Source of the DNA: an uncultured Clostridium sp.
GTDB taxonomy: Bacteria; Bacillota; Clostridia; Clostridiales; Clostridiaceae
DNA length: 64,000 bases
Direction: 5' to 3'
NCBI RefSeq assembly: GCF_947072515.1
Contig: NZ_CAMTIG010000016.1
Location: 1 to 64,000 of the forward strand
Numbering within the stretch: position 1 is the stretch's first letter; each line of letters opens with the position of its first letter. Positions 6,982-42,003 of this stretch are shown here, piece after piece. Position numbers and translations under genes: made by a program. The notes beneath the pieces were generated by a model. It did not search any database. It was given only the letters and a program-made list of their open reading frames with translations, and was not told the DNA's origin.

Positions 6982-7010
6982 AAGAAGTGCTAATAAAATT
7001 AGCACTTCTT
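6982..7010 (-). terminator. Terminator of the DXS-like gene
   Basis: A perfect 13-bp stem, AAGAAGTGCTAAT with ATTAGCACTTCTT and a 3-nt loop, sits 9 bp after the stop of the DXS-like gene. Confidence 0.8.
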
Positions 7011-7018
7011 CATTTCTA

Positions 7019-8779
7019 TTATTTATTTAAAGCTTTTTTAATATCTTCTACTATTAATTCATCAGTTAAGTGATATCTGTTATAAAGTTCTGCAACTGGA
7101 ACTCCATCTGTAAATTCTTTTTCAGCTCCAAAGTTTAATACTTTCATTTCTTTATCACTGTAGAATCTTGAAACTTTTTCTCCAAATCCACCTTCTAAAA
7201 TTCCATCTTCTAATGTTATAACTACTTTATGATTTTTCATTAAGTCTTCTAACATTTCTTTATCTATTCCACTTATGAATCTTGGATTTATAAGTGTAGC
7301 TTTAATATTTAATTCTTTTTCTAATTTTTCTACTAATTTTTCTCCTAGTCCATAGAATGCTCCAAGTCCTAAAACTGCAACCTCTTCACCACTTTGAACC
7401 ATTTGGAATTTATTTAAGTTACTGAAATCAGCTTTAACTTCTATTCCTTTTGATACTACTGGTCCTACTGGAACTTTTATAGCTACTGGGTGTCCATCTT
7501 GTTCTATTCCCCACTCCATCATAGCTAAGAATTCTTCTTTATTAGTTGGTGCTAAGTAAACTATATTTGGGATATTTGAAATTAAAGGTATATCAAATAT
7601 TCCGTGGTGAGTTACGTCAGCTCCTGTTATTCCACCATTATAAACCATTAATAATGCTGAATTATCATTTATAGCTAAGTCATGTGATAATTGGTCATAT
7701 GTTCTTTGAATAAATGTACTTGCAAATGAAGCAACTGGTTTTCCACCTGCAAATGCCATAGCTGATGCAAATGCTACTGCATGTTCTTCTGCTATACCAA
7801 CATCTACATATTGATCTTTAAGTTGTTCTCTAAAAGGAATTAATCCTAAGAATGAAGGAGTTCCTGCTGTTATTGCAACTATTCTACTATCTTTTTTAGC
7901 TTTCTCTAATAAAAGCTTTCCTGCTAATTGTGCATAACTTTCTGGCATTTGCATTTTTGGTTTTCCTGTTTCTACATCAAAAGGCATAGCATAGTGGAAA
8001 GATTCTTTATTCTTTTCAGCTATTTCATATCCCTTACCTTTTGTTGTACTAACATGAAGTACTACTGGTACTTTAGTATCTTTTATTTCTTTAAATGCTT
8101 CTATTAATTCTTGGATGTTATGTCCATCTTTAACGAAGTGATATTCAAATCCTAATGTAGTAAAGAAGTTATTCTCTGCTTTACCTTCTGTATCTCTAAG
8201 AAGTTTTAAGTTCTTATAAAGTCCTCCGTAGTTTTCTGCTATAGACATATTATTATCATTTACAACAATAATAATATTTTTTTCTGAAGCAGCTGCATTG
8301 TTTAAACCTTCATAAGCTTCTCCACCACTTAAAGAACCATCTCCTATAAGTGCAATTATATTTCCTTCTTCTCCTTTTACATCTCTAGCTTTAGCTAAAC
8401 CACAAGCTAAACTAACTGAAGTTGAAGTATGTCCTATTGTAAAGAAATCATGTTCACTTTCATATTGTGAAGTATATCCTTTAATTTCTTTCATTCTATC
8501 TTTATCTATATAATACTCTTTTCTTCCTGTAAGCATTTTATGTACATACGCTTGGTGAGATATATCATAAACTATTTTATCTATTGGTGAATTAAATACA
8601 TAGTGCATAGCAATAGTCATTTCTACTACTCCTAGGTTTGGACCAAAATGTCCACCCTTTGTACTAATTGTATCTATTAATGTTTCTCTAATTTCTTTTG
8701 CTAAAACATTAAGTTCTTCATTATTAAGACCTTTTACATCCTTAGGTCCATTTATTTTATTTAAAACTTGTAAATTCAT
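7019..8779 (-). CDS. DXS-like thiamine-diphosphate enzyme with altered substrate pocket
   Basis: A 586-residue homologue of 1-deoxy-D-xylulose-5-phosphate synthase. Seen: GGHFGPNLG (His44), DISHQAY (His75), thiamine-Mg motif GDGSLSGG (146-153) with VVNDNN, catalytic Glu331 in GIAEEHAV, QRTYDQ (Tyr361), Asp388 and His391/392. In DXS (known from Deinococcus numbering) Arg423 of DRAG and Arg480 of RYPRG hold the phosphate of glyceraldehyde 3-phosphate. Here the matching places read YNGG (Asn381) and VPVG (Val438), so both arginines are missing. It is also somewhat shorter than the usual ~620 residues. I infer a transketolase-like enzyme that still makes the thiamine-bound enamine but uses another acceptor. 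An annotation as dxs may be wrong. Its promoter carries a MerR-type operator. Confidence 0.85.
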   Translation of the reverse strand: MNLQVLNKINGPKDVKGLNNEELNVLAKEIRETLIDTISTKGGHFGPNLGVVEMTIAMHYVFNSPIDKIVYDISHQAYVHKMLTGRKEYYIDKDRMKEIKGYTSQYESEHDFFTIGHTSTSVSLACGLAKARDVKGEEGNIIALIGDGSLSGGEAYEGLNNAAASEKNIIIVVNDNNMSIAENYGGLYKNLKLLRDTEGKAENNFFTTLGFEYHFVKDGHNIQELIEAFKEIKDTKVPVVLHVSTTKGKGYEIAEKNKESFHYAMPFDVETGKPKMQMPESYAQLAGKLLLEKAKKDSRIVAITAGTPSFLGLIPFREQLKDQYVDVGIAEEHAVAFASAMAFAGGKPVASFASTFIQRTYDQLSHDLAINDNSALLMVYNGGITGADVTHHGIFDIPLISNIPNIVYLAPTNKEEFLAMMEWGIEQDGHPVAIKVPVGPVVSKGIEVKADFSNLNKFQMVQSGEEVAVLGLGAFYGLGEKLVEKLEKELNIKATLINPRFISGIDKEMLEDLMKNHKVVITLEDGILEGGFGEKVSRFYSDKEMKVLNFGAEKEFTDGVPVAELYNRYHLTDELIVEDIKKALNK

Positions 8780-8810
8780 AAATCTTCCTCCTTAGTGTGT
8801 TTCTTAATAT

Positions 8811-8841
8811 AGTATACCTCTTAGAGTTAACTCTAAGTCAA
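8811..8841 (-). promoter_or_regulatory. MerR-type promoter of the DXS-like gene
   Basis: Read leftward: -35 TTGACT (8841-8836), a 19-bp spacer, -10 TATACT (8816-8811). The over-long spacer is filled by the perfect 18-bp palindrome CTTAGAGTTAACTCTAAG (8820-8837). This layout is the hallmark of MerR-family activation, and the palindrome resembles operators of the NmlR/AdhR (aldehyde and electrophile-sensing) branch. No merR gene is present in this window. Confidence 0.75.
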
Positions 8842-9011: not shown

Positions 9012-11204
9012 TTAATCATGCTTTGTTATTACTCCATATCTATCTTGTCTTAAATTTATTCCATTTATTTTTTTAGTTAAGATATTAACTTTTCCATCAA
9101 TAATATTATTTACTCCAAACTCTCTATCCATCTCTCTTTTTTCCTTTTCTTTTTCCTCATCCCAAATAAATGGTGATTTTTTCATTAACCCACAGGATAA
9201 TCTAACTATATTTACTTTATACTCCATCCCTTCTTTTTCTCTCTTCATTCGCATAAATTCTTCTTCTAGTATTTCTATCTCTTCTTCTAAACTTAATTCT
9301 CTAAATTTTTTATAATATTCCTTTGCCTCTTCCACTTCTTTCTTTTTAGGAAACTTCTCTATTTTCCATTCTAAAACCGTAGCTTCATATGTTTCACAAG
9401 CCACTTTCTTATCTTTAAATTCATCAATTGGTCTATATAACCCACCTAAGTCTACTTTATAATCTCTTCTCACCTTTTCTTTTAAGGATAATGAAGATCT
9501 TCTTCCTATCTTGCTCTCTAACCTTAACCGTTTTAACCTCTCATTTACTATTCCAATTTTACACTTTAATTTTTCTATTTCATAAAGATAATTTCTTATT
9601 TCCTCTGCATTTAAAGATTTTAATACTCTCTTATTTGTAGTTCTTATCTTCTTCAAATCTAAAACTATTATTTCATTTTCCCCATATTTATTTACTTCTT
9701 TTATTATCTTCTCTTTTCTAAAAAGCTTTTTCAATTCCTTTGATAAAATACACCATATAACTTCTGTATTTATATTTCCATTTAAAATTAGGTTATATCC
9801 CCTAAATATATGACTATCTAACTTTAAATTAGTGTTCTTATCCATAACATGTCCTTCTACTTTTACTCTTAGTCCCACATTAAGCTTCTTCTTCCCTATT
9901 TCTATATCTGTTACCTTTCCATATCCTAACTCTGGTCTTATAAATTTATATCTATTTTCAATTAATTCTTTTTTCCTTCCAATCCTATTATATTTATAAC
10001 TATACTCCCATAAAAGTTTTGAACCCTTATCATCCATTATTTTTTTCAGTACTTCTAAAAGGCATATCTTTTCATTCTCAATTTTTTCTATTCTTATCTC
10101 TTGTTTGCCCTTCTTAAACCTCTTACTTTCATCCTCTATTACTTCCTTTAAATCATTCATAGCTCCACCTAATTCTATAAATGAATAACAATTATTTATC
10201 TTATTATAAATTTCTATATCTCCTGTTTGAGATATTAAATATTCTGCCTTTTCTAAGTCTTCATTCATTAAATGATATAAACTTAAGGAGTATAAAAACT
10301 TTTCATAAGCTCTTTCTCCTTCTTTTTTATATCTTTTAGCATTAATTACTTTTTCTTTTATTTTCAGTTCTTCATTAAAAACACATATTATGGCTTCATC
10401 TGCATCATAACTTATCTTTAATTCCCCTTCACTTTCCATACTATAAGTATTCAAACTAAAATATTCTTTATTTTCTATATTCACTTTTAAAAGACTTCTA
10501 TTATTTATCCCTTTTGAAAAGTCCATTGCAGCTTTATAATAATCCTTTATTTTATCTATATGATATATACTTCCTGCTCCAACTTTTCTTATTAATTTTT
10601 TTAAAAATACTCTATCATAATACTGCCCAAATCCAATACTATTAAAATATATATTTTTTTCTCTACATATTTCAGCTAATCCTAATATTCTTTCTTTTTC
10701 TTCTTCTATACTCCACTTAGTAGTTTCAATCCTTCCATCTGTAAATAGTATTATATGATTCTTATTACAGTAAGGAGCAAGTCTTTTTGTTATCTCTATT
10801 GCTGTTTCTAAAGGCTCTGATATTACATTCCCCTTTTGCACTAATATTTCTTCATCTACTCTTTTAAAAACTTCTCCCATCTCATAAGATGCTTTATCGC
10901 ATTTGACTCCATTTAATATCCTTCTCCCTTTGTCATGTCCTGAATAAGTAATTATAGATACATAATTACATCTTCCTCCCTTTAAAGCATTTAAAGTTTC
11001 CTTTACGCCCTTCTTTAACCCTTCTATTTCATTTTCCATACTTAAAGATGTATCTAAAAGTAAAATATGATGATTTATAGTTTTTATATCTTCTTTTTTT
11101 CTTTTTATTAAATAGAAATTACCTTCTCGACTTTCACCATCTACATCCTCTTTTACTTCTCTTTTTCCTAAGTAATAAATCTTGCACTTTTCCAATATTA
11201 TCAC
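9012..11204 (-). CDS. VWA-domain protein of unknown function
   Basis: A 730-residue, highly charged cytoplasmic-looking protein without signal peptide or membrane segments. Residues about 45-230 form a von Willebrand A domain with an intact MIDAS: DTSLSM (Asp51, Ser53, Ser55), a later ITYSGHD and LFTDGRIE. The remaining 500 residues are Lys/Glu-rich, partly coiled-coil-like (about 530-670), and match no family I recognise. The frame opens with GTG at 11204, but AAGGTG spacing favours the TTG three codons later. It lies 230 bp upstream of the DXS-like gene in the same direction, which has its own promoter. VWA proteins often scaffold complexes or pair with AAA+ ATPases; no such partner is adjacent. 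Confidence 0.75.
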   Translation of the reverse strand: MIILEKCKIYYLGKREVKEDVDGESREGNFYLIKRKKEDIKTINHHILLLDTSLSMENEIEGLKKGVKETLNALKGGRCNYVSIITYSGHDKGRRILNGVKCDKASYEMGEVFKRVDEEILVQKGNVISEPLETAIEITKRLAPYCNKNHIILFTDGRIETTKWSIEEEKERILGLAEICREKNIYFNSIGFGQYYDRVFLKKLIRKVGAGSIYHIDKIKDYYKAAMDFSKGINNRSLLKVNIENKEYFSLNTYSMESEGELKISYDADEAIICVFNEELKIKEKVINAKRYKKEGERAYEKFLYSLSLYHLMNEDLEKAEYLISQTGDIEIYNKINNCYSFIELGGAMNDLKEVIEDESKRFKKGKQEIRIEKIENEKICLLEVLKKIMDDKGSKLLWEYSYKYNRIGRKKELIENRYKFIRPELGYGKVTDIEIGKKKLNVGLRVKVEGHVMDKNTNLKLDSHIFRGYNLILNGNINTEVIWCILSKELKKLFRKEKIIKEVNKYGENEIIVLDLKKIRTTNKRVLKSLNAEEIRNYLYEIEKLKCKIGIVNERLKRLRLESKIGRRSSLSLKEKVRRDYKVDLGGLYRPIDEFKDKKVACETYEATVLEWKIEKFPKKKEVEEAKEYYKKFRELSLEEEIEILEEEFMRMKREKEGMEYKVNIVRLSCGLMKKSPFIWDEEKEKEKREMDREFGVNNIIDGKVNILTKKINGINLRQDRYGVITKHD

Positions 11205-26003: not shown

Positions 26004-27922
26004 TCGAGTAGGAGCTAAATAATTATTTTATTTAGCGTCCTCTCACACCACCGTACGTACCGTTCGGTATACGGCGGTTCATTAGAATTTAATATTTCAT
26101 TTGATATGTTTGTGTTAGACTAACAAATCCTAATGATTCTAGATATTTATTATCTAGAGATTTGTTTAAGATAGGGCTGTTGGAAATTCTCCAGTAGCCT
26201 TTTCTTGTATTTGCATATTCCCGTGATTTGTATCTGTTAACTCCTAGTTTTACTAGGTTTCTGTATTTAGTACTAATTTTCTTCCACTGTTTCCATATGC
26301 AAGCTCTTAGTCTTCTTCTAATCCATTGGTCTAGTCTCCTTAGCTTCGCCGACGCGTTAGCTATTCTATAATAGTTAATCCATCCTATTATTATTTGATT
26401 TAATTTCTTCAATCTATATTCCATGCTAATTCCTTTATTCCTATTAGTATAAAATTTGATTTTGTCTTTAAATCTCTTAATTGATTTTTCATGGATTCTT
26501 ATTTCTGCTCCACTTTTCGCAAAGTAAAACGAAAATCCCAAGAATTTTCTCTTAGATACAATATCTACTGCACTTTTATTCTTATTTACCTTAAGCTTTA
26601 GCTTATTCTCTATAAGATTTGTCATAGATTTCATTATTCTTATGCCTGCTCTCTGACTTTTAACATATACATTATTATCATCTGCATATCTACAGAATTT
26701 GTGTCCTCTCTTATCAAGCTCCTTATCAAGTTCATCAAGCATTATATTAGCTAATAACGGACTTAAAGGGCCACCTTGTGGCGTTCCCTCCTCACTTGTT
26801 ACAGAGATACCATTAATAAAAATTCCACTTTTTAAGTATTTTCTTATTAGTGATAATAATCGTTTATCTTTAATCTTCTTTTCCAGTTTTCCCATAAGAA
26901 TATCATGGTTAACTTTATCGAAGAATTTCTCTAAATCCATATCTATAACCCATCTATTTCTTTCATTTATATATTGCTTTGATTTAATTATTGCATCCTT
27001 TGCCCCTCTACCAGGTCGGAAACCAAAGCTATTTTCTGAAAATGATGGTTCATAGATTTTAGTTAAAACTTGAGCAATTGCTTGTTGTATTAATCTATCT
27101 TGTACAGTTGGTATCCCTAATAGTCTAACACCACCATCAGATTTGGGTATTTCTACTCTTCTTACTGGTGATGGATTGTATTTAGTTTCTAGTATTTTAG
27201 CTTTTATTGTACCCCAGTGTTTTCGAATATGCTCTCGAAGTTCATCGGTCTTCATTCCGTCAACTCCATGACTACCTTTATTGCTAGTTACTCTTTTAAG
27301 TGCTAAAAGCATATTATTCCTTTCTAGAACTTCTTCAAGTAACATACTATTATCAAATGCTTCATCGTTTACGCTTTCCCTATTTAGTAAAACCCTAGAA
27401 TTACTCGGCGCCTTTGATTTACCTTGAAGTTCCACTTCTACTTCCATCATTTGGTCTCTATATTGAGTTTTCTGCTTTCTTTGTAATTTCTTTGATTTAT
27501 CCAAAGTTGTAAACCTCCTAACGTTCAGTCCTTCCTCCGCTAACGCGTTTAGCGAAGTACTATGACATCTGCTGACTTCTGATAGTTCAGTTATATATCA
27601 CTATATAGGTTATCTTATAGAATTTAATCTAGATTAAGATGTATCTATCAGACCTCCCCAGGTAAGAACACGTACTTTCACCTCATATATCTGCCACATT
27701 TACTTCCTCTATTTCGGATAGTTTAGGGCTTCACTTTGTATTGCAAGTTCACCCATAGAGCTAAGCCTCAAATGTGATTCGTGTACCTCAGACCAAGGTT
27801 TTGCTGCCGACTTCCTTCAGATTCCACCTCGCGATGGACACCCTTGTCTTAAGCTAACGGTTGGCACTATCAACCCCCATATCGGACTTTCACCGACTAG
27901 TACGTGCCCATGCTGGGCACAC
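26003..27922 (-). mobile_element. Group II intron (IIC-like), full length
   Basis: On the minus strand the element starts GTGTGCCCAGCATGGGCAC (27922 leftward), a typical group II 5' end, runs through a structured RNA of about 400 nt, then the maturase gene, then domain V (about 26080-26045, ACCGCCGTA pairing with TACGGTGGT) and domain VI (GCTAAATAAA / TTATTTAGC with loop), ending CTCGAT at 26003. About 1.92 kb, with no terminal inverted repeats. The 5' exon is the xpt terminator hairpin plus ATTATT, the target type of group IIC introns. Exact 3' end could shift by a base. Confidence 0.85.
26089..27504 (-). CDS. ltrA: Group II intron reverse transcriptase/maturase
   Basis: A 471-residue intron-encoded protein: RT domains with IPTVQDRLIQQAI, FGFRPGRGAKDAI, DMDLEKFFDKVNHD, TPQGGPLSPLLANI and the catalytic CRYADD, followed by the maturase (X/GIIM) region with RRRLRACIWKQWKK and ANTRKGYWRI. 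No HNH endonuclease domain follows, as in IIC introns, and the sequence closely resembles the Geobacillus GsI-IIC maturase. Start is TTG at 27504, eight nt after AGGAGG. No frameshift is seen, so the intron could be active. Confidence 0.93.
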   Translation of the reverse strand: MDKSKKLQRKQKTQYRDQMMEVEVELQGKSKAPSNSRVLLNRESVNDEAFDNSMLLEEVLERNNMLLALKRVTSNKGSHGVDGMKTDELREHIRKHWGTIKAKILETKYNPSPVRRVEIPKSDGGVRLLGIPTVQDRLIQQAIAQVLTKIYEPSFSENSFGFRPGRGAKDAIIKSKQYINERNRWVIDMDLEKFFDKVNHDILMGKLEKKIKDKRLLSLIRKYLKSGIFINGISVTSEEGTPQGGPLSPLLANIMLDELDKELDKRGHKFCRYADDNNVYVKSQRAGIRIMKSMTNLIENKLKLKVNKNKSAVDIVSKRKFLGFSFYFAKSGAEIRIHEKSIKRFKDKIKFYTNRNKGISMEYRLKKLNQIIIGWINYYRIANASAKLRRLDQWIRRRLRACIWKQWKKISTKYRNLVKLGVNRYKSREYANTRKGYWRISNSPILNKSLDNKYLESLGFVSLTQTYQMKY

Positions 27923-29017: not shown

Positions 29018-30328
29018 TTATTCTTCTTTCAATTTTTTCTTTCTCTTATCTAAAAGATTTAATGAATAGCTAAATCCTAATCCTAAGAAATAAATCATTA
29101 GGAATCTATATTGAATGGCAGTTACTGCAAATATAATATAAATTAAAATATATGCAAATATAACATTTAAATTTCGTTTTTTAATACCATAAAGCATAGC
29201 TAAGATAAATGGTATTAAATAAACCATAAATAACATTAATCCACCTTCTGGAAGAACCTTCATAAGGCCTGAGCTTCCTCCAATATCGTTTCCTCTACCA
29301 ATAAAATTCATATTAGCTTGAACATATTGATATTGGTTAAATCCACAACCAATTATTTTATTTTTCTTCCATGTTTCATAACCAACCTTAAAATCATCTT
29401 TTCTTACTGAATATGACCCATATTGATTATCTGCACTATTTTTCACTTTATTCTTTAAGAAGAATCCACCAACCATTATACCAACAGTAGCAAAAACAAT
29501 TAATAGAACTATTCCAATTGCTATTTTTATCTTAGATTTTCTTCTAATACTGCTTACAATAAAACTTAAAATTCTAAGTGGTATTGCTGCTGCCATTATT
29601 CCAATAGCTGTAGTAGATAAAGTTGTCATTATAGTTACTACTAAAATTACAGTACTCACTATAATAATAACTTTATTTAACCATCCTTTAGTTTTTCTAA
29701 AGAATAATTCTGCTATTAATGCAATACTTAATGGGAAAGCATACATAGGTCCTTCTGTAAATATCCCTGTATTTCTAGCAAATATATGGTTTCCTATATC
29801 TATATACTGAGTTATATAATATAGATTATTATAATTAGGAATTTCTCTTGCTCCCCCCCAAGTAAATACTATCTCACTTGTAGGTTTCATATCTTTCAAT
29901 ATAATTACTTTTACATAATAATATAATGATATAAGGGCTAAAATAACCATAACATTTGATACTTTTAAAATTAAACTATATCGTTTCTTTTTATTTATTC
30001 TACCAGATGTATATAAAATAACTCCTAATAATAATCCTAGAAATCCAATAATAAAATCCCCTTTATCCATTCCATTAACCATAATAAATATAGAATTATA
30101 AAGAGTTACTGAAATTAATACAATTCCAAGAATAAAAAGTCTTTTTTTATTCTTACAAATCTCTTTAATTGATAATATTACAAGAACCCATAAAACTATT
30201 AATGTATAGATCCATAAATTTTGGCTTACATTTAAATTCATAAAATTCCATATAGTATTTGCATTTATAATAATACAAATAGCCAAAAGATATTCTAAAA
30301 TACTTATTATTTTTTCTCTAATCTCCAT
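29018..30328 (-). CDS. O-antigen ligase/polymerase-like membrane protein
   Basis: About 436 residues with 10-12 membrane helices and a large loop between late helices containing YGSYSVRKDDFKVGYETWKKNKIIGCGFNQY, the G-x-G-x-N/Q-type motif of the Wzy_C/WaaL (O-antigen ligase) family. It could polymerise repeat units or attach the chain to a carrier. A second, EpsG-type polymerase lies in the same locus, so their roles must differ. The start at 30328 (MEIREKIIS) follows GGAGGG and overlaps the previous gene by 22 bp; the open frame extends 16 codons further. Last gene of the locus. Confidence 0.7.
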   Translation of the reverse strand: MEIREKIISILEYLLAICIIINANTIWNFMNLNVSQNLWIYTLIVLWVLVILSIKEICKNKKRLFILGIVLISVTLYNSIFIMVNGMDKGDFIIGFLGLLLGVILYTSGRINKKKRYSLILKVSNVMVILALISLYYYVKVIILKDMKPTSEIVFTWGGAREIPNYNNLYYITQYIDIGNHIFARNTGIFTEGPMYAFPLSIALIAELFFRKTKGWLNKVIIIVSTVILVVTIMTTLSTTAIGIMAAAIPLRILSFIVSSIRRKSKIKIAIGIVLLIVFATVGIMVGGFFLKNKVKNSADNQYGSYSVRKDDFKVGYETWKKNKIIGCGFNQYQYVQANMNFIGRGNDIGGSSGLMKVLPEGGLMLFMVYLIPFILAMLYGIKKRNLNVIFAYILIYIIFAVTAIQYRFLMIYFLGLGFSYSLNLLDKRKKKLKEE

Positions 30329-30870
30329 TTGCCCTCCATAATCATAACTATACCTAAGCCAATAGCTAAACCACAAACTGCAAAAATTAAAACATCAAGT
30401 CTTTTATCTATTCTTATGTCATCTTCACTAACTGTTATTTGTTTCTTTAAATAGACCATTTTTGTAGGTACATACTCTCCATTTTGTTTAATTATAGAAT
30501 TTCCAATTGCTTCAACAACCTTTATTCCATTATCTAAGTTTTTTGCTTTATAAGTTATATTTATTTGTCTTGAAATAACTGATGGTTCTATTGTTACATT
30601 TTTTATTTCTCCATTAACACCTGCATCATTTAATGCATTACTTATAAATCCTTCTTCTTTTTCTTTAGTATTAGTTAAATTTATTATATTCTCATACCTT
30701 TGACTTATAGAATTCCAATCATATTTAGTATGTAGATTAAACATTAAATTCATTTTAACTGAATATTTTTGTTTATAAATAAATTTACAATACCCACAAG
30801 AAATAGCTGTACAGATTACTACACTTAATAAAACTATTATACTTCTGTTTACTACTTTATTTTTTAACAT
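30307..30870 (-). CDS. Wzz/CapA-like chain-length protein, short
   Basis: A 187-residue protein with an N-terminal helix (about 10-28), an extracellular region and a C-terminal helix (about 155-178), the two-helix Wzz layout. It is smaller and more diverged than the CpsC-type protein at the head of the operon, which makes it the second chain-length-like protein of the locus. It overlaps the ligase-like gene and is separated from wzx by a hairpin. Confidence 0.6.
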   Translation of the reverse strand: MLKNKVVNRSIIVLLSVVICTAISCGYCKFIYKQKYSVKMNLMFNLHTKYDWNSISQRYENIINLTNTKEKEEGFISNALNDAGVNGEIKNVTIEPSVISRQINITYKAKNLDNGIKVVEAIGNSIIKQNGEYVPTKMVYLKKQITVSEDDIRIDKRLDVLIFAVCGLAIGLGIVMIMEGKWRLEKK

Positions 30871-30891
30871 TTCATTACTCCTAATGTTAAA

Positions 30892-30915
30892 GCCTTAAAG
30901 CAAAAGCTTTAAGGC
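30892..30915. terminator. Intra-operon hairpin between wzx and the last two genes
   Basis: GCCTTAAAGC and GCTTTAAGGC form a perfect 10-bp stem with a 4-nt loop. On the minus strand the following sequence, TTTAACATT, is a weak T-tract, so it may be a partial terminator that lowers expression of the two downstream genes, or an RNA-processing hairpin. Confidence 0.55.
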
Positions 30916-30973
30916 AATTTTTCTTTATAAAATAATTATATAACTTTTTTCTATATTAATTGTAATATATTTA

Positions 30974-32425
30974 TTAATTCTTAGATTTTTCTATTTTCTC
31001 TTTTATAAATTTAAAAACTATTTTGTTAGTTTCATCTTTAATAATAATTAATGCTCCAAAATAAATTATTACTCCTACTACACACTGTATTAAAGTTGTT
31101 ATGATTTTAGGTTTCATAAATCTTCCAATAACAATTACAATTACTGTCATTATTATTCCTGCAATTGTATATTTGATAATTGCCTTTATTAATGGTCTTA
31201 ATTCAATTTCTTTATATATAAATATATATTGAACTAATGTTACACTAAATTCAGCAATAACAGTTGCTATACAAGATCCAAAGGCATCATACTTTGGAAT
31301 CAATAGAAAATTTAATATTACATTTACTATAGCTCCTACTGTAACTGAAATAGTAAATTCTCTATTTCTATTAGTTGGCAATAAATATTGTACTCCTAAT
31401 ACATTACTTAAAGCTATAAAAAATACTATTGAAACTGATATCATTAATAAATATTTTACCTCACCAAATCCTCTACCAAAAAACCAAGGTACAAAGCTTT
31501 CTGAAATACTTGCTAATCCAAAAGCCATAGGTATTGCAATATATGAAACACCAATTAAACTTTTATTTAAATGTTTTTTGAGCTTATCATTATCTCCATT
31601 AGCAAATATATTGCTCATTCTGGGAAGCATAACTACACCTAATGACGTAACTAACCCTAAAACCAATTTAACTATACTTTGTGACTGTTGGTACAATCCA
31701 ACTTGTGTTGTATTAGATAACATCCCCAACATAGATTTATCCAATACTGCATATATTTGAATTGCAATTTGTGGAATAAACAATACTAATGCTGGCTTTA
31801 TATGGCATGTAATATCACTTATACTTATTTTCACTTTTGTAACTGTATTTTTTAAATATGGCCACATTGATAAGTTTCCTAATAAAGCTGTTCCAACATT
31901 TATAAATACATATAATGCTACATCTTCTACATTTTTTACCAATGTAAATATTAAAATTACACCTATTACTCTAACAATCAAGTTTCTTGTTACTGTCTTC
32001 TTAAAATCTTCTAAGCCCATAAATAACCAAGATATATCAAAAGTTGCTACTAAAATATTAATTCCTTGAATTAGAAATACTTCTCTATAATTTGCTTCTC
32101 TTCCGAATACAATAATATAAACAACTAAAGCAATTAATGTAGTTATTGTCTTTAATATAGTTATAGCCCAAAATGTAGTCGATAATTTTTTTTTATCATC
32201 TCTTACATATGCAATTTGTCTATTCCCATATAAACTAATTCCTATAGTTCCTAATATAACAAAATATTGTGCCAATGAATTAGTATAGCTAGATATCCCT
32301 ATTCCACTAGCACCTAATACTCTAGATATATATGGGACTGTAATTAATGGCATTAGTAATGTCACTATTTGATATACAACATTATATACAAGATTTTTTT
32401 TCACACTTATATTTTTTTCATTCAT
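30974..32425 (-). CDS. Polysaccharide repeat-unit flippase (Wzx family)
   Basis: A 483-residue protein with about 12-14 membrane helices, starting with the family pattern KKNLVYNVVYQIVTLLMPLITVPYISRVLGASGIG. It belongs to the Wzx/MurJ-like superfamily and would move lipid-linked repeat units across the membrane. It sits downstream of the glycosyltransferase block, 80 bp after the previous gene, consistent with a Wzx/Wzy-type pathway. Confidence 0.9.
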   Translation of the reverse strand: MNEKNISVKKNLVYNVVYQIVTLLMPLITVPYISRVLGASGIGISSYTNSLAQYFVILGTIGISLYGNRQIAYVRDDKKKLSTTFWAITILKTITTLIALVVYIIVFGREANYREVFLIQGINILVATFDISWLFMGLEDFKKTVTRNLIVRVIGVILIFTLVKNVEDVALYVFINVGTALLGNLSMWPYLKNTVTKVKISISDITCHIKPALVLFIPQIAIQIYAVLDKSMLGMLSNTTQVGLYQQSQSIVKLVLGLVTSLGVVMLPRMSNIFANGDNDKLKKHLNKSLIGVSYIAIPMAFGLASISESFVPWFFGRGFGEVKYLLMISVSIVFFIALSNVLGVQYLLPTNRNREFTISVTVGAIVNVILNFLLIPKYDAFGSCIATVIAEFSVTLVQYIFIYKEIELRPLIKAIIKYTIAGIIMTVIVIVIGRFMKPKIITTLIQCVVGVIIYFGALIIIKDETNKIVFKFIKEKIEKSKN

Positions 32426-32507
32426 TTTTTTGTCCTTTAATAAGTTTTAAGTATTAATCACTCTTTGGTTCACTCAATATTTAATGTATCTTCCATATTG
32501 AATAAAA

Positions 32508-33533
32508 TTATTTAACTTTTTCTTCATCATATTGAATTGCCTTTTCTATACTCTCTTTTATATACTCGCCATTCAAAACTTTTCTTTGTATCTCTTTACA
32601 ATTCATAATATATTCATCATACTTACATTCATTTTTTTCTATCTTCTCATTTATTTCATTTAAATTCCCAATGGAAAATCCAATCTTTTCTTTTTTTACA
32701 AATTCTGCTATAGCTGACTCATCCCATACTATTACAGGCATCCCCGCTGCCATATATAATGACAATTTATGAGGGTTGTTATACTTTAAATACTCTCCTG
32801 TATCTCCTTCACAGGATTCTATCGATTCTCCATCCCATATAAGCCCATACTTTCCTTTTAATTCACCTGGAAGTTTTTCTGGTTCAAATTTTCCTAGATA
32901 ATTTATATTTTGTTCTAATTTATTTTTATTTAAATTAGCTCCATATAAATTTAAATTAATATCATTTAATTTATATATGAATCCGCTTTTATTTTCTGAT
33001 AAATTCCCAGCGAAAACAATATTTTCACTCATTTTTTTAATTTGCTTTTGTTCATCTACTAAATAGTCAAACAAATTCAAATTAATACACTGAGATTTAA
33101 CTCCATTCTCTTTTATCCATTTTCCCATAAATCTATTGTGACAAATAATCACATCAAAAATATTAAATAATTCAATTTCTTTATACTTTTTTTCTTCCAA
33201 ATCACGATATCTCAATGTATCTATATCATGAATAATTGCAATTGTTTTACATTTTTTTTGTGCTAATACTTTTAATACTTTTTTGGTTATAAATCGCCCT
33301 TGGAATGGATATTGTATTGCTACAACAGAATTCTCCTCAATCCTATTTAACTCTTTTCCTATTTTAACAGATTGTACAACTTTTTTTAATTTTTCTTCTG
33401 ATATATTTAAAATAATACTCTCAAAATCTATTTGTTCTAATATCTTTATAATATCATTCCTTGCCTTAGACCCCGCATTGAATCTTGTTTCCTCTTCATA
33501 ATTATTTCTACATTCTAATAAATATTTTTTCAT
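32508..33533 (-). CDS. Glycosyltransferase, galactofuranosyltransferase-like
   Basis: A 341-residue GT-B-like protein with GLIWDGESIESCEGDTGEYLKYNNPHKLSLYMAAGMPVIVW, the signature stretch of the Gtf3-like/beta-1,6-galactofuranosyltransferase group common in low-GC Gram-positives. It is encoded directly after glf, whose product makes the UDP-galactofuranose donor, so a galactofuranosyl link in the polymer is likely (inference). Confidence 0.72.
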   Translation of the reverse strand: MKKYLLECRNNYEEETRFNAGSKARNDIIKILEQIDFESIILNISEEKLKKVVQSVKIGKELNRIEENSVVAIQYPFQGRFITKKVLKVLAQKKCKTIAIIHDIDTLRYRDLEEKKYKEIELFNIFDVIICHNRFMGKWIKENGVKSQCINLNLFDYLVDEQKQIKKMSENIVFAGNLSENKSGFIYKLNDINLNLYGANLNKNKLEQNINYLGKFEPEKLPGELKGKYGLIWDGESIESCEGDTGEYLKYNNPHKLSLYMAAGMPVIVWDESAIAEFVKKEKIGFSIGNLNEINEKIEKNECKYDEYIMNCKEIQRKVLNGEYIKESIEKAIQYDEEKVK

Positions 33534-33542
33534 AATATCCCC

Positions 33543-34652
33543 TTATTTTTTACTTTCTTCCTCTTGTACACAATTTAATGCAGATTCTATTACATTGTGC
33601 ATATCAAAGTATTTATACTGTCCAAGTCTTCCACCAAATATAATATTCTCTTCGCTTTCTCCAAGCTCTTTATATTTAGCATAAAGATTATTGTTCTTAT
33701 CATTATTTATTGGATAGTATGGCTCATCACCTTTTTCCCAAGTTGCTGGATATTCTTTAGTTATAACAGTTTTTTCTGAATTACAATCTTCAAAATGCTT
33801 ATGTTCAATTATTCTTGTATATGGAATCTCATACTCTGTATAATTTACAACTGCATTTCCTTGATGATTTTCTTCATCTAAGATTTCATCTTCAAATCTT
33901 AAGCTTCTATATTCTAAAGTTCCAAATTTATAATCATAGTATTCATCTATCATCCCTGTAAATACTACTTTGTCTGCTATACTTTCAAGTTCTTCCTTAT
34001 TAGCAAAGAAATCTAGATTTAATTTTACTTCTATTCCCTCTAACATTTTTTCTACTATTTTATTGTATCCATCTATTGGTATTCCTTGATATTTATCATT
34101 AAAATAATTGTTATCAAATGTAAATCTTACTGGAAGTCTTTTTATTATAAAGCTTGGAAGTTCTGTAGCTTTTTGTCCCCATTGCTTCTCTGTATATCCT
34201 TTTATAAGTTTTTCATAAATATCTTTTCCTACTAAACTTATAGCTTGTTCTTCTAAATTCTTTGGATTCTCTATGCCAGCTTCTTTCTTTTGCTCTTCAA
34301 TTTTAGCTTTTGCTTCAGCTGGTGTTTTAACTTTCCATAATCCATAAAATGTATTCATATTAAATGGAAGGTTGTAAAGTTCACCTTTATAGTTTGCTAC
34401 TGGTGAGTTTGTATATCTATTAAATTCTACAAAGCTATTTACATAATCCCATACTTCTTTATTGCTTGTATGGAATATATGAGCTCCATATTTATGAACA
34501 TTTATTCCATGAACATTTTCGCAATATACATTTCCACCTATATGAGATTTCTTATCTATAACAAGACATGTTTTACCTTTTTTATTCATTTCATAAGCAA
34601 AAGTAGCACCAAAAAGTCCTGCTCCTACTACTAAGTAATCATATTTCTTCAT
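33543..34652 (-). CDS. glf: UDP-galactopyranose mutase
   Basis: A 369-residue flavoprotein with FAD site YLVVGAGLFGATFAYE, IGGNVY and the HKYGAHIFHTSNKEVWDYVN motif of UDP-galactopyranose mutases; GGRLGQYKYFDMHNVI near the C-terminus binds flavin and substrate. It converts UDP-galactopyranose to UDP-galactofuranose, so the polymer probably contains galactofuranose. It is 9 bp from the galU stop and 9 bp from the next transferase. Confidence 0.95.
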   Translation of the reverse strand: MKKYDYLVVGAGLFGATFAYEMNKKGKTCLVIDKKSHIGGNVYCENVHGINVHKYGAHIFHTSNKEVWDYVNSFVEFNRYTNSPVANYKGELYNLPFNMNTFYGLWKVKTPAEAKAKIEEQKKEAGIENPKNLEEQAISLVGKDIYEKLIKGYTEKQWGQKATELPSFIIKRLPVRFTFDNNYFNDKYQGIPIDGYNKIVEKMLEGIEVKLNLDFFANKEELESIADKVVFTGMIDEYYDYKFGTLEYRSLRFEDEILDEENHQGNAVVNYTEYEIPYTRIIEHKHFEDCNSEKTVITKEYPATWEKGDEPYYPINNDKNNNLYAKYKELGESEENIIFGGRLGQYKYFDMHNVIESALNCVQEEESKK

Positions 34653-34661
34653 ACTGTTCTC

Positions 34662-35567
34662 CTATTCTTCTTCCTTATCTTCTTTTCTATTTTCAATATT
34701 TAATATACCCTTTAAGTATTCTGTAAATCCATCTTTTAATTCATCTCTTCTTAAAGCATACTCCACAGTTGCTTCTAAAAATCCAAGCTTATCTCCAACA
34801 TCATATCTTCTTCCTTGAAAGTCATATGCGTACATGGCCTCCCTTTTTATAAGTTCTAAAAGTGCATCTGTAAGTTGGATTTCATTTCCTTTACCTGGTT
34901 GTGTCTCAGCTAATATTTCAAATATTCTAGGAGTTACTATATATCTTCCAAGAATAGCAACATTTGATGGCGCTTCATCTACATTTGGCTTTTCAACTAA
35001 GCCCTTAACTTTCATTACTCTATCTTCTATTTCTATTCCTTCAACTATTCCATACTTATCTACTTTGTTATGAGGTACAGTTTGAACACCTAATACAGAA
35101 GTATGATATTCGTTATAACAATCAATCAATTGTTTTAAACATGGCTTTTCATCATTATAAACAATATCATCTCCTAAAAGTATTGCAAATGGTTCTTCTC
35201 CTACAAAAGCTTTGGCACAATTTATTGCATGACCAAGCCCTCTTGGTTCTTTTTGTCTAATAAAATGTATGTCCACCATATTTGAAATATCTTGAACCAT
35301 ATGAAGCATATTCTCTTTTCCTGCATTTTCAAGTTCAAGTTCCAATTCTATACTTCTATCAAAGTGATCCTCTATACATTTTTTACTTCTTCCTGTAATA
35401 ATAAGGATTTCTTCAATCCCTGATGCTATAGCCTCTTCAATAATATACTGTATAGTTGGTTTATCAACTATTGGAAGCATCTCTTTAGGTTGCGCTTTAG
35501 TTGCAGGTAAAAATCTTGTTCCAAGACCTGCTGCAGGTATTATTGCTTTTCTTATCTTTTTATACAT
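34662..35567 (-). CDS. galU: UTP-glucose-1-phosphate uridylyltransferase
   Basis: A 301-residue nucleotidyltransferase with the classic start KAIIPAAGLGTRFLPATKAQPKEMLPIVDKP, a GDDIVYN metal site and VEKPNVDEAPSN. It makes UDP-glucose, the precursor of UDP-galactose used by Glf. The ATG at 35567 has AAAGGA at proper distance; an ATG three codons earlier lies against it. Confidence 0.93.
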   Translation of the reverse strand: MYKKIRKAIIPAAGLGTRFLPATKAQPKEMLPIVDKPTIQYIIEEAIASGIEEILIITGRSKKCIEDHFDRSIELELELENAGKENMLHMVQDISNMVDIHFIRQKEPRGLGHAINCAKAFVGEEPFAILLGDDIVYNDEKPCLKQLIDCYNEYHTSVLGVQTVPHNKVDKYGIVEGIEIEDRVMKVKGLVEKPNVDEAPSNVAILGRYIVTPRIFEILAETQPGKGNEIQLTDALLELIKREAMYAYDFQGRRYDVGDKLGFLEATVEYALRRDELKDGFTEYLKGILNIENRKEDKEEE

Positions 35568-35620
35568 CTTAATCATTCCTTTTCATTTTGCATTAATTTT
35601 TCTCACAATTAACTTTTAAT

Positions 35621-36493
35621 CTATTCTTCTTTAATCTTTTTTACTAATAAGTTCACTATTTCAATATCTACTTCCTCATCAAATTTTCTTGCAAATATAT
35701 TCTCACTAGATTTTAATAGTTCAAAATCATTTGATCTATATATATATGGTTTTCCTCTTTGCCAGTCAATTTCTCTAAGTGAATTAGAAATCTCTCCTTC
35801 TCCATATTTATTATAAATTTTCACTTCTATTTTTTTAGTGAAAATTATACTTTGTAAAAAATGCTCATCCGGACACAGCGTATTCTTAAAAGTTTTGTAT
35901 ATCCACACTCTCTCTTGAACAATTCTTCTTGCTAATTTATCTGTTATGCTGAACCAATTAGATCCCTTCTTAATCACCACATTGTTATTTCTACTATATC
36001 CAAAAATATTTTGTATTTTTATACTTACTTTATTAAAAATTTTATTAAAATTTCTAAATCCTCCTCTTAATTTTTTTGTATAATAAAATTTTTGACACCT
36101 CTTGCTATACTCTTCATTTTCTTTCTCATCACAAAAATGGATAAATTCAAACCCATTGTTCTCTACAAAAAAATTATTGATTTCCTCATTTGATTTGATA
36201 CTTATATCGACTCCCGATATAAGATGATAATAATCTGCCTTACCTTTTATTGCTAGCTCTAATAAATCTAACTCACATTCTACTTGTGATATATCTCCCC
36301 ACAGTATTTTTTTTCTATCAATGAATGTTATTTTTCCTAGCTTCACTTTATTTTCAATTTCATTTTTAGGAAACTCTTTACTATTGTAGTCAATATGAAT
36401 ATAAAAGCTAGTATCTTTTCCATCTAATATTTCAATATTTTTCTTCAATATTTCATAATTATTATGTGCTATTATCAAATATGCATGTTTCAT
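35621..36493 (-). CDS. Core-2/I-branching-type glycosyltransferase (GT14)
   Basis: A 290-residue protein starting MKHAYLIIAHNNYEILKKNIEIL, with DYYHLISGVDISIKSNEEINNFF and FIHF, the features of the bacterial GT14 'beta-1,6-N-acetylglucosaminyltransferase-like' family. It would add a side branch or linkage to the repeat unit. The start at 36493 follows AGGAG; a longer frame would overlap the preceding gene. Confidence 0.78.
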   Translation of the reverse strand: MKHAYLIIAHNNYEILKKNIEILDGKDTSFYIHIDYNSKEFPKNEIENKVKLGKITFIDRKKILWGDISQVECELDLLELAIKGKADYYHLISGVDISIKSNEEINNFFVENNGFEFIHFCDEKENEEYSKRCQKFYYTKKLRGGFRNFNKIFNKVSIKIQNIFGYSRNNNVVIKKGSNWFSITDKLARRIVQERVWIYKTFKNTLCPDEHFLQSIIFTKKIEVKIYNKYGEGEISNSLREIDWQRGKPYIYRSNDFELLKSSENIFARKFDEEVDIEIVNLLVKKIKEE

Positions 36494-36512
36494 TCTCCGC
36501 TCCTCACTAAAC

Positions 36513-37487
36513 TTATTTTTTATACTCAATCCAAACCTTTCTAAATGTCTTTTTACCCAACATCAATACTAAGATAGCTATCTTATCTCTTTTATTTGCT
36601 TTTTTATCTAATACTACATATTTTGAATTCGCTTTTATTTTCTTTATAAGCTCATCTTCAATTTTTTCATATTTTCCATTACACATTAAAACTTGCCTTA
36701 GCATATTAAAATTCGAAATATTACCTCTTCTTCTTGCTGCTTTTTTTAAATTTGGATAATTCATATCAATAAATTCTATCATTCTATCAGTATACTCTAT
36801 TAAATCCATTTTTCTTATATTAAAGCTCTCATTCATTATTGATGATTTTCTAATTAAATAAAAATACTTTCTTTCTGGCCCAAATACTATTTTTTTTGCC
36901 TCATTTAAAATTTCATACATAATAGCAATATCTTCATATAATTTTCCTTTTGGAAATCGTCTTTCTTTGAATAATTCTTTATTATACATTTTTCCCCATG
37001 CAGAATGATCAAATAATTTCTGATACAATATAGTTTCTATAGCTTCTTCATCATTTAATAACCTTATTGGCTCATTTTCATTTGCACTTCCTATAGGTTT
37101 TTTTTCTCCATTTTCAAAATACTCATAAAAACTACAAACTGAAATTTTAGCGTTATGTTCTTTCACCATTTCATATAGATATTCAATATAATCATTACTA
37201 ACAAAATCATCACTATCAATAAAAACTAAATATTCACCTTTTGCTACATCAATTCCATAATTCCTTGCATCCGATAGGCCTCCATTTTTTTTATCTACTA
37301 TCTTTATTCTTTTATCACTTTTTTCATATTTTTCACAAATTTCTAATCCTGAATCTGTTGATCCATCGTTCACTAATATTATCTCTATATTTTCATATGT
37401 TTGGCTTATTATACTTTCTATACATTTACCTAAATAATTTTCTACATTATATATAGGTACTATAATACTAATTAACTCTTTATTCAT
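36513..37487 (-). CDS. Family 2 glycosyltransferase
   Basis: A 324-residue GT-A enzyme: ISIIVPIYNVENYLGKCIESIISQTYENIEIILVNDGSTDSG, then the DxD-type LVFIDSDD. It transfers a sugar from a nucleotide donor to the lipid-linked repeat unit; the sugar is not predictable. Part of the tightly packed capsule operon. Confidence 0.9.
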   Translation of the reverse strand: MNKELISIIVPIYNVENYLGKCIESIISQTYENIEIILVNDGSTDSGLEICEKYEKSDKRIKIVDKKNGGLSDARNYGIDVAKGEYLVFIDSDDFVSNDYIEYLYEMVKEHNAKISVCSFYEYFENGEKKPIGSANENEPIRLLNDEEAIETILYQKLFDHSAWGKMYNKELFKERRFPKGKLYEDIAIMYEILNEAKKIVFGPERKYFYLIRKSSIMNESFNIRKMDLIEYTDRMIEFIDMNYPNLKKAARRRGNISNFNMLRQVLMCNGKYEKIEDELIKKIKANSKYVVLDKKANKRDKIAILVLMLGKKTFRKVWIEYKK

Positions 37488-37497
37488 TATTCACTCC

Positions 37498-38568
37498 TTA
37501 CCCAAATATACTATGATATGGTAGTACTTGTTGATATCCTTTTATAACAATTGTGTGTATTAAATAGAATCCATATAATCCAACTACTACGAGTTTCAAA
37601 AGATTTCTTATCATCTTACTTTCTATTTTACTTAATAAAAAAGGAATAAATAAAATTTGAGTAAATGTAAAACATAAAATTGCTCTAGATATTAAAGGAA
37701 TTACCGCTGAAAATAATAATAATTCTACTGTTATAAACTGTAAATTAAGCATTACCATATATTTCCTATCATTTTTCAGTTTTTTATAAAATGCATATCC
37801 AAATAAAAGAATCCCTAAATTAATTATAAATGACCAATAATCAAATACTCCTTTATTAAATGCAGTATGAAAATATCCTATATATTTAGTAAAACTTAGT
37901 ATATATATAAATATATCGTAGATAAACGGCATACATAAAATTGATATTATACTAACTATTATGTGAGTTTTTATCTTTTTATTAAATAAGAAATAAATAG
38001 GAAAATATATAAAAGCAGACATGTGTATCAATGCTGCTATTAATATAAATATAAAATATTTCTTTATATCTCTATTTATTGCATATTTTAAAGCATATAA
38101 AAATATTGCTACGGCCACACTCTGCCTTACAACATTCATTGAAATAAAATATGTTGTTGTTATTACAAATAAAATAATACTTAAAAGTATATACTCTGAT
38201 TGTTCATATATCGCTAAATATATAAAACCACATATAAGTACTGATGTTAATACAAATAACCATTGATAATTTGAAGTACATATTGCCACAATTTTATTTA
38301 TTAGATAAAATCCAATTTCATATCCTCCATTATGTCCTGACTCTACCGATAAAAAGCCTGGTACATATCTATAAAAATAATCTGTTCCTAAACCATATCT
38401 AACAGCTGAAACTAAAAATAGTGGTAAAAATGAACATACTGCTAAAAACTTATATACAATAGTATTAATTATTTTTGCATTTCCTACATTCCCCTCTACT
38501 CTTTTTGCTGTAATTGCTAAAAATGCAAATACCAAAGATATTAATAGGGCGCTTATATAAATTTCCAT
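37498..38568 (-). CDS. EpsG-family polysaccharide polymerase (Wzy-like)
   Basis: A 356-residue protein with about 10 membrane helices and the EpsG pattern FLVSAVRYGLGTDYFYRYVPGF after the second helix. This family acts as the Wzy-type polymerase joining repeat units outside the cell membrane. It lies between two glycosyltransferase genes, 9-10 bp from each neighbour. Confidence 0.85.
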   Translation of the reverse strand: MEIYISALLISLVFAFLAITAKRVEGNVGNAKIINTIVYKFLAVCSFLPLFLVSAVRYGLGTDYFYRYVPGFLSVESGHNGGYEIGFYLINKIVAICTSNYQWLFVLTSVLICGFIYLAIYEQSEYILLSIILFVITTTYFISMNVVRQSVAVAIFLYALKYAINRDIKKYFIFILIAALIHMSAFIYFPIYFLFNKKIKTHIIVSIISILCMPFIYDIFIYILSFTKYIGYFHTAFNKGVFDYWSFIINLGILLFGYAFYKKLKNDRKYMVMLNLQFITVELLLFSAVIPLISRAILCFTFTQILFIPFLLSKIESKMIRNLLKLVVVGLYGFYLIHTIVIKGYQQVLPYHSIFG

Positions 38569-38577
38569 TCCACCCTC

Positions 38578-39627
38578 CTATTTTTTTCCTTCTTTTATTT
38601 TTTCTATCAGCTCATTCCATTTTGGCATAATATTTTCAATTTTAAATTCATTTGCTTTTAACTTAGCTTCTATAGCCATTTTTTTTATTTTTTCTTTATC
38701 TTCTATTAGACAATTAATTTTTTCTGCTAATTTTTCTACATTGTTTGCCTCAACTAAAAAGCCATTTTTTCCATCTATAATTAACTGACGTGGTCCTGTC
38801 TCGCAATCAAAACTTACACAAGGTAATCCAAATTCCATAGCTTCTATCAATACCATCGGTAATCCTTCCCACCTAGAACTAAGCACAAAAAAATCTGCTG
38901 ATTTATATATTTTATCGATAGTTTTTGTAGGTGGTATAATCTCAATCGAATTGTCCAAACTTAATTCAGATATTTTCTTGTTAAAGCTTCCTTTTAATTC
39001 ACCTTCACCAACTATTTTCAGTTTCCAATTTTTCCTATCAATTAGTTTCCATGCATCAATCAGCATATCTTGACCCTTCTGTTCAGTTAACCGTCCAATA
39101 TTTAATATAATATTATTTTCATGACTACTTTCTATATCACTCTTAAAGCTACACGGATTATTAATCTGAATACAGTTCTTTACCCATGGTTTAATTATAT
39201 CTCTATCCTTTATTGTTAATGTCACTACACATTCAAAGTTTTTATAAAAAATTCTTTTCATTCCTCTAAGTAATTTAGGTGTTGTAAAATAGTCACAATG
39301 TTCTGTTGCTATTATTTTACTTTTTGTATTAATACTAGCAATACCAACAAATAAATTTAATAACCTCATTGATAATGTAATGTAAATTTTTTCTTCATTT
39401 ACTTTTAAAATTCTATGTAACTTTTTCAACATGTCTATTTTTCCATTACTTCTCAATGGAATTTTTTTTATTCTCTTATCAAGTTCATAAAATGACTCTT
39501 CACAATTATCTAAAATTAAAATTTCAACTCTATTTTCTTGAACAAATTCATTTGCTAATAATGAAATAACTCTCTCTCTTCCCCCACTTCCTTTAATACT
39601 ATCAATAATAAAACATATTTCTTTCAT
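38578..39627 (-). CDS. Family 4 glycosyltransferase
   Basis: A 349-residue GT-B enzyme. The C-terminal domain has NIGRLTEQKGQDMLIDAW, IVGEGELK and SSRWEGLPMVLIEAMEFGLPCVSFDCETGPRQLI, the EX7E donor-binding region. N-terminal ICFIIDSIKGSGGRERV is the family's acceptor-domain start. The ATG at 39627 is favoured by GGAG 8 nt upstream. Confidence 0.9.
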   Translation of the reverse strand: MKEICFIIDSIKGSGGRERVISLLANEFVQENRVEILILDNCEESFYELDKRIKKIPLRSNGKIDMLKKLHRILKVNEEKIYITLSMRLLNLFVGIASINTKSKIIATEHCDYFTTPKLLRGMKRIFYKNFECVVTLTIKDRDIIKPWVKNCIQINNPCSFKSDIESSHENNIILNIGRLTEQKGQDMLIDAWKLIDRKNWKLKIVGEGELKGSFNKKISELSLDNSIEIIPPTKTIDKIYKSADFFVLSSRWEGLPMVLIEAMEFGLPCVSFDCETGPRQLIIDGKNGFLVEANNVEKLAEKINCLIEDKEKIKKMAIEAKLKANEFKIENIMPKWNELIEKIKEGKK

Positions 39628-39645
39628 CAATTTCACTCCACATCT

Positions 39646-40524: not shown

Positions 40525-40558
40525 TGCCCTAACTCCTTTATTAATCCTTAAATTCTTT

Positions 40559-41206: not shown

Positions 41207-41225
41207 TTATCTCTCCCCCTTTTAT

Positions 41226-41990: not shown

Positions 41991-42003
41991 AAAAAACACC
42001 TCT

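Follow-up and report, generated by a model that had tools for sequence, protein, structure and literature searches.

The window, a 64,000-nt stretch of DNA from an uncultured Clostridium sp., encodes a ThDP-dependent enzyme of the DXS fold that belongs to the DXPS-like subfamily (NF008968 / 9KPQ), a separate, ancient branch of DXS relatives. The site that grips glyceraldehyde 3-phosphate (GAP) in DXS has been lost and the gene stands behind an aldehyde-type promoter, and the enzyme therefore probably joins pyruvate to a different small aldehyde. It is proposed to be an aldehyde-induced pyruvate-aldehyde ligase with a small unphosphorylated acceptor, a reading whose chance of being right we put at about even. 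The proposal is made because the acceptor pocket and gate are lost with catalysis kept, the subfamily forms its own clade, and an operator, a regulon in the same genome and dxr-less hosts all point in this direction.

For this enzyme type a fold, an NCBIfam model and a solved relative (9KPQ) are on record, while titles and abstract openings in the literature yielded no account of a DXS relative that has lost the entire GAP network, of its aldehyde-type operator or of its split phyletic pattern. This pattern runs two ways, with an aldehyde-type operator in clostridia and one streptococcus, and a tight link to dxr in the family of B. asteroides. It raises the questions of which residues set the aldehyde acceptor in ThDP enzymes, and whether the DXS arginines are needed for DXP synthesis.

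The gene and its protein family

The first-pass annotation had assigned positions 7019..8841 to a DXS-like enzyme lacking both phosphate-binding arginines; the gene is present, but its ORF covers 7019-8779, and the promoter lies within the rest of that span (Table 1). The protein matches NF008968 with 896.7 bits (residues 5-584, cut-off 510) and the general DXS model NF003933 with 654.3 bits, and contains the Pfam domains DXP_synthase_N, Transket_pyr and Transketolase_C. It also passes the cut-off of the TIGR00204 'dxs' equivalog (531.6 against 465.95 bits), and NF008968 is itself named DXS, bearing out the expectation that such genes would be misannotated as dxs. With this cut-off passed, enzymes that may not be DXS would be entered as such in pathway calls, MEP models and drug-target lists. 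The NF008968 cut-off does not split the two groups, many classical DXS exceeding 510 bits when pieces are summed (to a maximum of about 608 in the family sample), and the classical dxs of the same genome scores 544.6 bits against this model. The closest solved structure is PDB 9KPQ ('A ThDP-dependent enzyme belonging to the DXPS-like subfamily', released 2025-08-20), which has the same fold; among titles and abstract openings, no paper on 9KPQ or on the DXPS-like subfamily was found.

Table 1. Features of the window, with coordinates, strand and basis.
Feature	Position	Strand	Basis or remark
DXPS-like ThDP enzyme, 586 aa, Arg-less acceptor pocket (N381, V438, A353, D94)	7019..8779	-	ATG start
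MerR-type promoter: -35 TTGACT (8841-8836), 19-nt spacer, -10 TATACT (8816-8811)	8811..8841	-	Sequence; layout shared by related loci
18-bp perfect palindrome CTTAGAGTTAACTCTAAG, likely MerR (NmlR/AdhR-like) operator	8820..8837	.	Enriched upstream of subfamily genes
Hairpin, 13-bp stem, possible terminator, just past the stop of the DXS-like gene	6982..7010	.	Consensus scan, which calls a terminator on the + strand only (T-run of the - strand too short for its rule)
730-aa VWA-domain protein, directly upstream of the DXS-like gene	9012-11204	-	No NCBIfam match
Group II intron reverse transcriptase/maturase	26089-27504	-	Pfam RVT_1, GIIM
Exopolysaccharide/capsule cluster: flippase-like protein, UDP-galactopyranose mutase, glycosyltransferases, EpsG, CpsB/CapC	30307-43382	-	Pfam, eight ORFs searched
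958-aa PLD-like + ResIII/helicase + DUF3427 protein	58923-61799	-

A broken or decayed gene was ruled out: the ORF is open, and the catalytic residues of the subfamily are retained, with H80, H299, E370, R398 and H431 (E. coli numbering) in 80/80 proteins and H49 in 79/80. In-frame stops were flagged in two relatives (L020, L023), where they sit at the C-terminal end of the match.

A quick tree of 93 rows contains a branch of length 1.31 and SH-aLRT 100 that splits 65 subfamily rows from classical DXS, several long rows being flagged in it. Alignment and tree, which had been suggested as a check, thus place the window gene in an Arg-less clade apart from classical DXS. The rows included 12 of the 20 Gastranaerophilales sequences, 21 of the fetched classical sequences and E. 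coli DXS, and excluded sub_L170 (two partial copies in one ORF), L082, L075, oth_L111, oth_L116 and oth_L185, the near-copies L147, L150, L158, L159 and L168, and gas_L250 (half of a split transketolase).

Acceptor pocket and catalytic residues

Residues were mapped onto E. coli DXS (sequence from NC_000913). In DXS, R99, Y392, R420 and R478 surround the GAP site, as described in the consulted part of a study of the enzyme (PMC11019550). Both phosphate-binding arginines are absent from the window protein, as the first-pass annotation had claimed: the alignment places N381 in the R420 column and V438 in the R478 column, with no basic residue at either. The 57-residue spacing by which V438 had been located is the same as that between R423 and R480 of D. 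radiodurans in the same source (PMC11019550, consulted part). Further losses in pocket and gate are R99 to D94, D419 to Y380, Y392 to A353 and D427 to a gap. Because R99, Y392, R420 and R478 are all lost, pocket and gate have changed in concert.

Most of the residues listed earlier as kept do align with their counterparts, H44, H75, E331, Y361 and H391 falling on H49, H80, E370, Y400 and H431. D388 does not: the loop is one residue shorter than in E. coli, D427 corresponds to a gap, and D388 aligns with G428. Y361 is a different tyrosine from Y392, the conserved one of the GAP pocket. With classical DXS (TIGR00204; E. coli Dxs) the window protein thus shares the fold and H49, H80, H299, E370, R398 and H431, but it lacks R420, R478, R99, Y392 and D427 and belongs to a separate clade.

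At the 420 column, R or K occurs in 0/80 subfamily proteins, compared with R in 106/106 classical DXS rows; at the 478 column, R or K is found in one of the 80 (L082, a partial sequence of 514 residues) and in all 106 classical rows (97 R, 9 K). These counts, which include the classical dxs of the same genome twice (L171, L182) and exclude sub_L170, gas_L250, oth_L185 and the intermediate dxs_L172, show that the loss of the arginines is not due to chance. The R99 column holds 104 R and 2 K among the 106 classical rows and mostly E, D or A in the subfamily, and Y392, D419 and D427 are near-invariant in classical DXS and lost in the subfamily. The former arginine columns vary even among close relatives, the 420 column being A, L and Y in L145, L146 and L148, which argues against a fixed phosphate acceptor at this place. 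No arginine was found to reach the pocket through an alternative alignment, the alignments over several sets giving the same columns.

The segment corresponding to E. coli 183-240 has 26 residues in the window protein, compared with 58 in classical DXS. This shortening by about 32 residues was rejected as a sole diagnostic of the subfamily, L111 and L116 having both arginines together with a short segment.

Promoter and operator

A palindrome in a 19-nt spacer between -35 and -10 elements is the layout of MerR-activated promoters, and this layout recurs in the subfamily. An operator score of at least 14/16 was obtained at 15/44 subfamily loci, compared with 1/545 other ORFs of the same loci (Fisher p 1.5e-17, with related loci treated as independent; L066 and L082 were excluded as having too little upstream DNA), and in 0/880 mononucleotide shuffles. 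The best score at 33 classical-dxs loci, scanned whole, was 12. The other 29 of the 44 subfamily loci have no strong operator, and among 35 further loci from Gastranaerophilales and the B. asteroides family, one scores 14 and one scores 12.

Nineteen sites were inspected, chosen for a score of at least 13 or for a clear palindrome at a lower score. TTGACT or TTGACC, a 19-nt spacer and a -10-like hexamer were present at 16 of them, three of these hexamers matching at only 4/6 positions, and the fitting sites include those of Streptococcus sobrinus and of a MAG labelled alphaproteobacterial. At L166 and L167 the promoter appears to face a MerR gene that is divergently oriented, and L157 conforms once the reading is shifted by one base.

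A candidate regulon in the same genome

Up to two mismatches allowed, the operator pattern occurs at 7 places in the Clostridium genome, against 1 for a reversed control (each read on both strands). Exact copies precede the window gene and a gene for a 383-aa iron alcohol dehydrogenase, the latter with TTGACT-19-TATAAT. The best NCBIfam model of this dehydrogenase is PRK15138 (551 bits, below the cut-off of 645), which we take to be the YqhD model, making the protein a YqhD-like alcohol dehydrogenase. A site with one mismatch precedes a second iron alcohol dehydrogenase (contig C25; best model lactaldehyde reductase, below cut-off), whose gene is divergent from a MerR gene; the -35 is present here, with no clear -10 at 19 nt. 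Two mismatches are found at four places: a ferredoxin/nitroreductase-like ORF, so called from its sequence and lacking any NCBIfam match, follows CTTAAAGTAAACTTTAAG with TTGACT-19-TAGAAT; a HAD-like ORF, likewise named by sequence, follows another; and the remaining two fall within ORFs.

The genome encodes a 125-aa MerR protein with Cys53, whose best NCBIfam model is NmlR and whose gene lies on contig C25 beside the iron alcohol dehydrogenase gene, not adjoining the window gene. Across the subfamily, a MerR-like BLAST cluster lies within seven genes of the DXS-like gene at 17/46 loci (of its 19 members, about a dozen were examined), and no other neighbor cluster recurs at more than 8/46 loci or in more than 5/17 further stretches. 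A Cys at the sensor position is present in 10/11 MerR proteins examined, the Clostridium one included, and 9/10 of the relatives' MerR genes, which were picked by motif, adjoin the DXS-like gene.

According to the part consulted of a review of these regulators, the NmlR clade, which includes homologs from Clostridium and Lactobacillus, has a conserved Cys at position 52-54 and is thought to sense carbonyl or oxidative stress, and, in B. subtilis, AdhR responds to methylglyoxal or formaldehyde by raising adhA, yraC and yraA (PMC4776306). The system described here resembles the NmlR/AdhR carbonyl-stress regulons in the palindrome within a 19-nt spacer, the co-regulated alcohol dehydrogenases and the Cys at the sensor position. 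It differs in that the regulator scores below the NmlR cut-off (97.8 against 175 bits), and in that the consulted part of the review names no DXS-like gene (PMC4776306).

Distribution and the link to DXP

Elsewhere in the genome lie a classical dxs in which both arginines are present (G000:C15:49625-51469, 793 bits), a dxr and a split transketolase-like pair. The first-pass annotation had asked whether a second dxs was present, and had named as contrary evidence the case of a sole DXS of the genome; the window gene is not that sole DXS. In a sample of its family, Clostridiaceae, 18/96 genomes have a full-length or near full-length subfamily gene above 800 bits, with a classical dxs listed in 18/18, and in a sample of the phylum, a full-length gene above 800 bits is listed in 5/398 genomes, the present one (G000) included. 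In the host phylum, the subfamily gene is thus a patchy accessory gene, a second DXS-type gene beside classical dxs.

In a set of 19 genomes, dxr is missing from seven that carry the subfamily gene: G294, G495, G496 (E. pallens), G498 (S. sobrinus), G500 (L. plantarum), G503 (a small genome) and G504. Six others of the same set (G492, G493, G494, G497, G501, which is an Olsenella, and G505, from the family of B. asteroides) have dxr and no classical dxs. DXP is used by ThiG and PdxJ besides dxr. None of the seven dxr-less carriers gave a full ThiG match, three (G294, G496, G498) having partial matches above the Pfam cut-off. Among 11 genomes, the only full ThiG match is that of G501 (325 bits), the others being partial at 18-32 bits; the partial matches exceed the Pfam cut-off of 23 in G000, G294 and G498, and in G496 and G505 only with the pieces summed. 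These partial matches are attributed to other TIM barrels because control matches occur in 14/14 genomes, archaea included.

The family of B. asteroides shows a different pattern. Among its 41 genomes, those with dxr have the Arg-less gene only in 15 cases, both types in 2, the classical gene only in 2 and neither in 2, while those without dxr have the Arg-less gene in 1 case, the classical gene in 1 and neither in 18; the dxr/Arg-less link has a Fisher p of about 5e-7, with the relatedness of the genomes ignored. The Arg-less state was read from sequence in 16 carriers, and for G509 and G525 the second DXS-type gene was typed from match shape only. The protein of the single dxr-less carrier (G510) groups in another clade, and the dxr-linked proteins fall into at least 2 lineages of the tree (L213 and L216; L207-L210 with L212-L221 and L083). 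These counts are good evidence that the MEP pathway is supplied by Arg-less members in some cases. Since 15 genomes have dxr and only an Arg-less gene, the missing arginines alone cannot exclude DXP synthesis, and either re-tuning of the pocket has happened repeatedly or GAP falls within a broad acceptor range of the enzyme.

The family of G492 (Melainabacteria/Gastranaerophilales) gives a less clear picture, with dxr in 30/30 genomes, classical dxs in 0/30, the Arg-less gene in 21/30 and neither DXS type in 9/30. The DXP source in these nine genomes may lie elsewhere, or the MAGs may be incomplete; with nine dxr-positive genomes having neither type, Gastranaerophilales are weakened as proof of a DXP-making subfamily.

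The non-GAP acceptor proposed in the first-pass annotation therefore stands in part: it is consistent with the lost GAP pocket, the MerR-type operator and the hosts without dxr or a full ThiG match, while the 15 B. asteroides-family genomes speak against it as a family-wide rule.

Proposed function and alternative readings

In the proposed mechanism, a reactive aldehyde that builds up in the cell would, in the lineage of the window, cause an NmlR/AdhR-like regulator to switch on the window gene, which is probably transcribed alone. The enzyme would form hydroxyethyl-ThDP from pyruvate as in DXS, decarboxylation proceeding without waiting for GAP, and would transfer the acetyl unit to a small unphosphorylated aldehyde, for which methylglyoxal, formaldehyde, glycolaldehyde and acetaldehyde are candidates. 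The product would be a less reactive hydroxyketone, which the co-regulated dehydrogenases may reduce further. Weighing against this ligase are the 15 dxr-positive B. asteroides-family genomes, which make DXP synthesis without the arginines plausible, the 29/44 loci without a strong operator, the rarity of the site (1/35) in Gastranaerophilales and the B. asteroides family, a regulator that is below its model cut-off and not adjacent to the gene, and the two operator-like sites inside ORFs. A wider claim, that the subfamily is a widespread, mislabelled aldehyde-trapping C-C ligase, induced by NmlR/AdhR-like regulators and feeding YqhD-like reductases, with the same scaffold serving as an Arg-less DXP synthase in some actinobacteria, is put forward tentatively, as a possibility that we would not expect to hold in full.

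The protein could instead be a DXP synthase isozyme, a stress-induced spare in which the GAP phosphate is held by other residues or a high Km is tolerated. The dxr link in the B. asteroides family, spread over at least two lineages, speaks for this, as do the genomes with dxr and an Arg-less gene in which classical dxs is missing (Olsenella, and G492, G493, G494 and G497, all titled Melainabacteria or Gastranaerophilales), and E. coli R478A DXPS has a GAP Km of 1400 uM, the consulted part of the source not describing it as dead (PMC11019550). We nevertheless consider an isozyme rather unlikely for the window protein: its genome already has a classical dxs, no conserved basic residue substitutes at the 420 and 478 columns, the gene persists under the operator in hosts, such as S. 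sobrinus, that have neither dxr nor a full ThiG match, and nine dxr-positive genomes of the G492 family lack both DXS types.

An ungated pyruvate decarboxylase or acyloin former, releasing acetaldehyde or acetoin/acetolactate with no dedicated aldehyde acceptor, would agree with the loss of R99, in DXS part of a network that hinders lactyl-ThDP decarboxylation when no acceptor is present (PMC11019550, consulted part), and with W and F, both bulky, in the 420 and 478 columns of many Gastranaerophilales members. It is improbable, an acetaldehyde producer being odd under an aldehyde-type operator, and the pocket differing between clades. The loss of the arginines and the dxr link would both be explained if the enzyme made unphosphorylated 1-deoxy-D-xylulose from pyruvate and D-glyceraldehyde, for conversion to DXP by xylulokinase. 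E. coli XylB phosphorylates 1-deoxyxylulose, and a sugar-kinase-like ORF, read from its start, adjoins the gene at one locus (L081). This route seems very improbable, no recurrent kinase having been noticed among the neighbor clusters, few of which were annotated, and D-glyceraldehyde being, to our knowledge, not a main metabolite.

Unusual relatives

Several relatives depart from both groups or from the usual gene content. A 592-aa protein (L172, G106:C11) belongs to a third kind of DXS-like enzyme: the 420 column holds R and the 478 column Y, the 183-240 segment is short, and in the tree the protein forms a long branch that is neither classical nor subfamily. Five classical DXS of the B. asteroides family (L202-L206), from small genomes or MAGs of 0.7-1.1 Mb, have Lys in place of R478. 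One genome (G434) has two full-length subfamily genes about 19 kb apart (G434:C15:475546-477285 and 496498-498237) in addition to a separate classical dxs, and an ORF of 820-852 aa in another (L170, G367:C2) carries the subfamily gene twice, as partial copies that overlap, perhaps the result of a duplication or of an assembly error.
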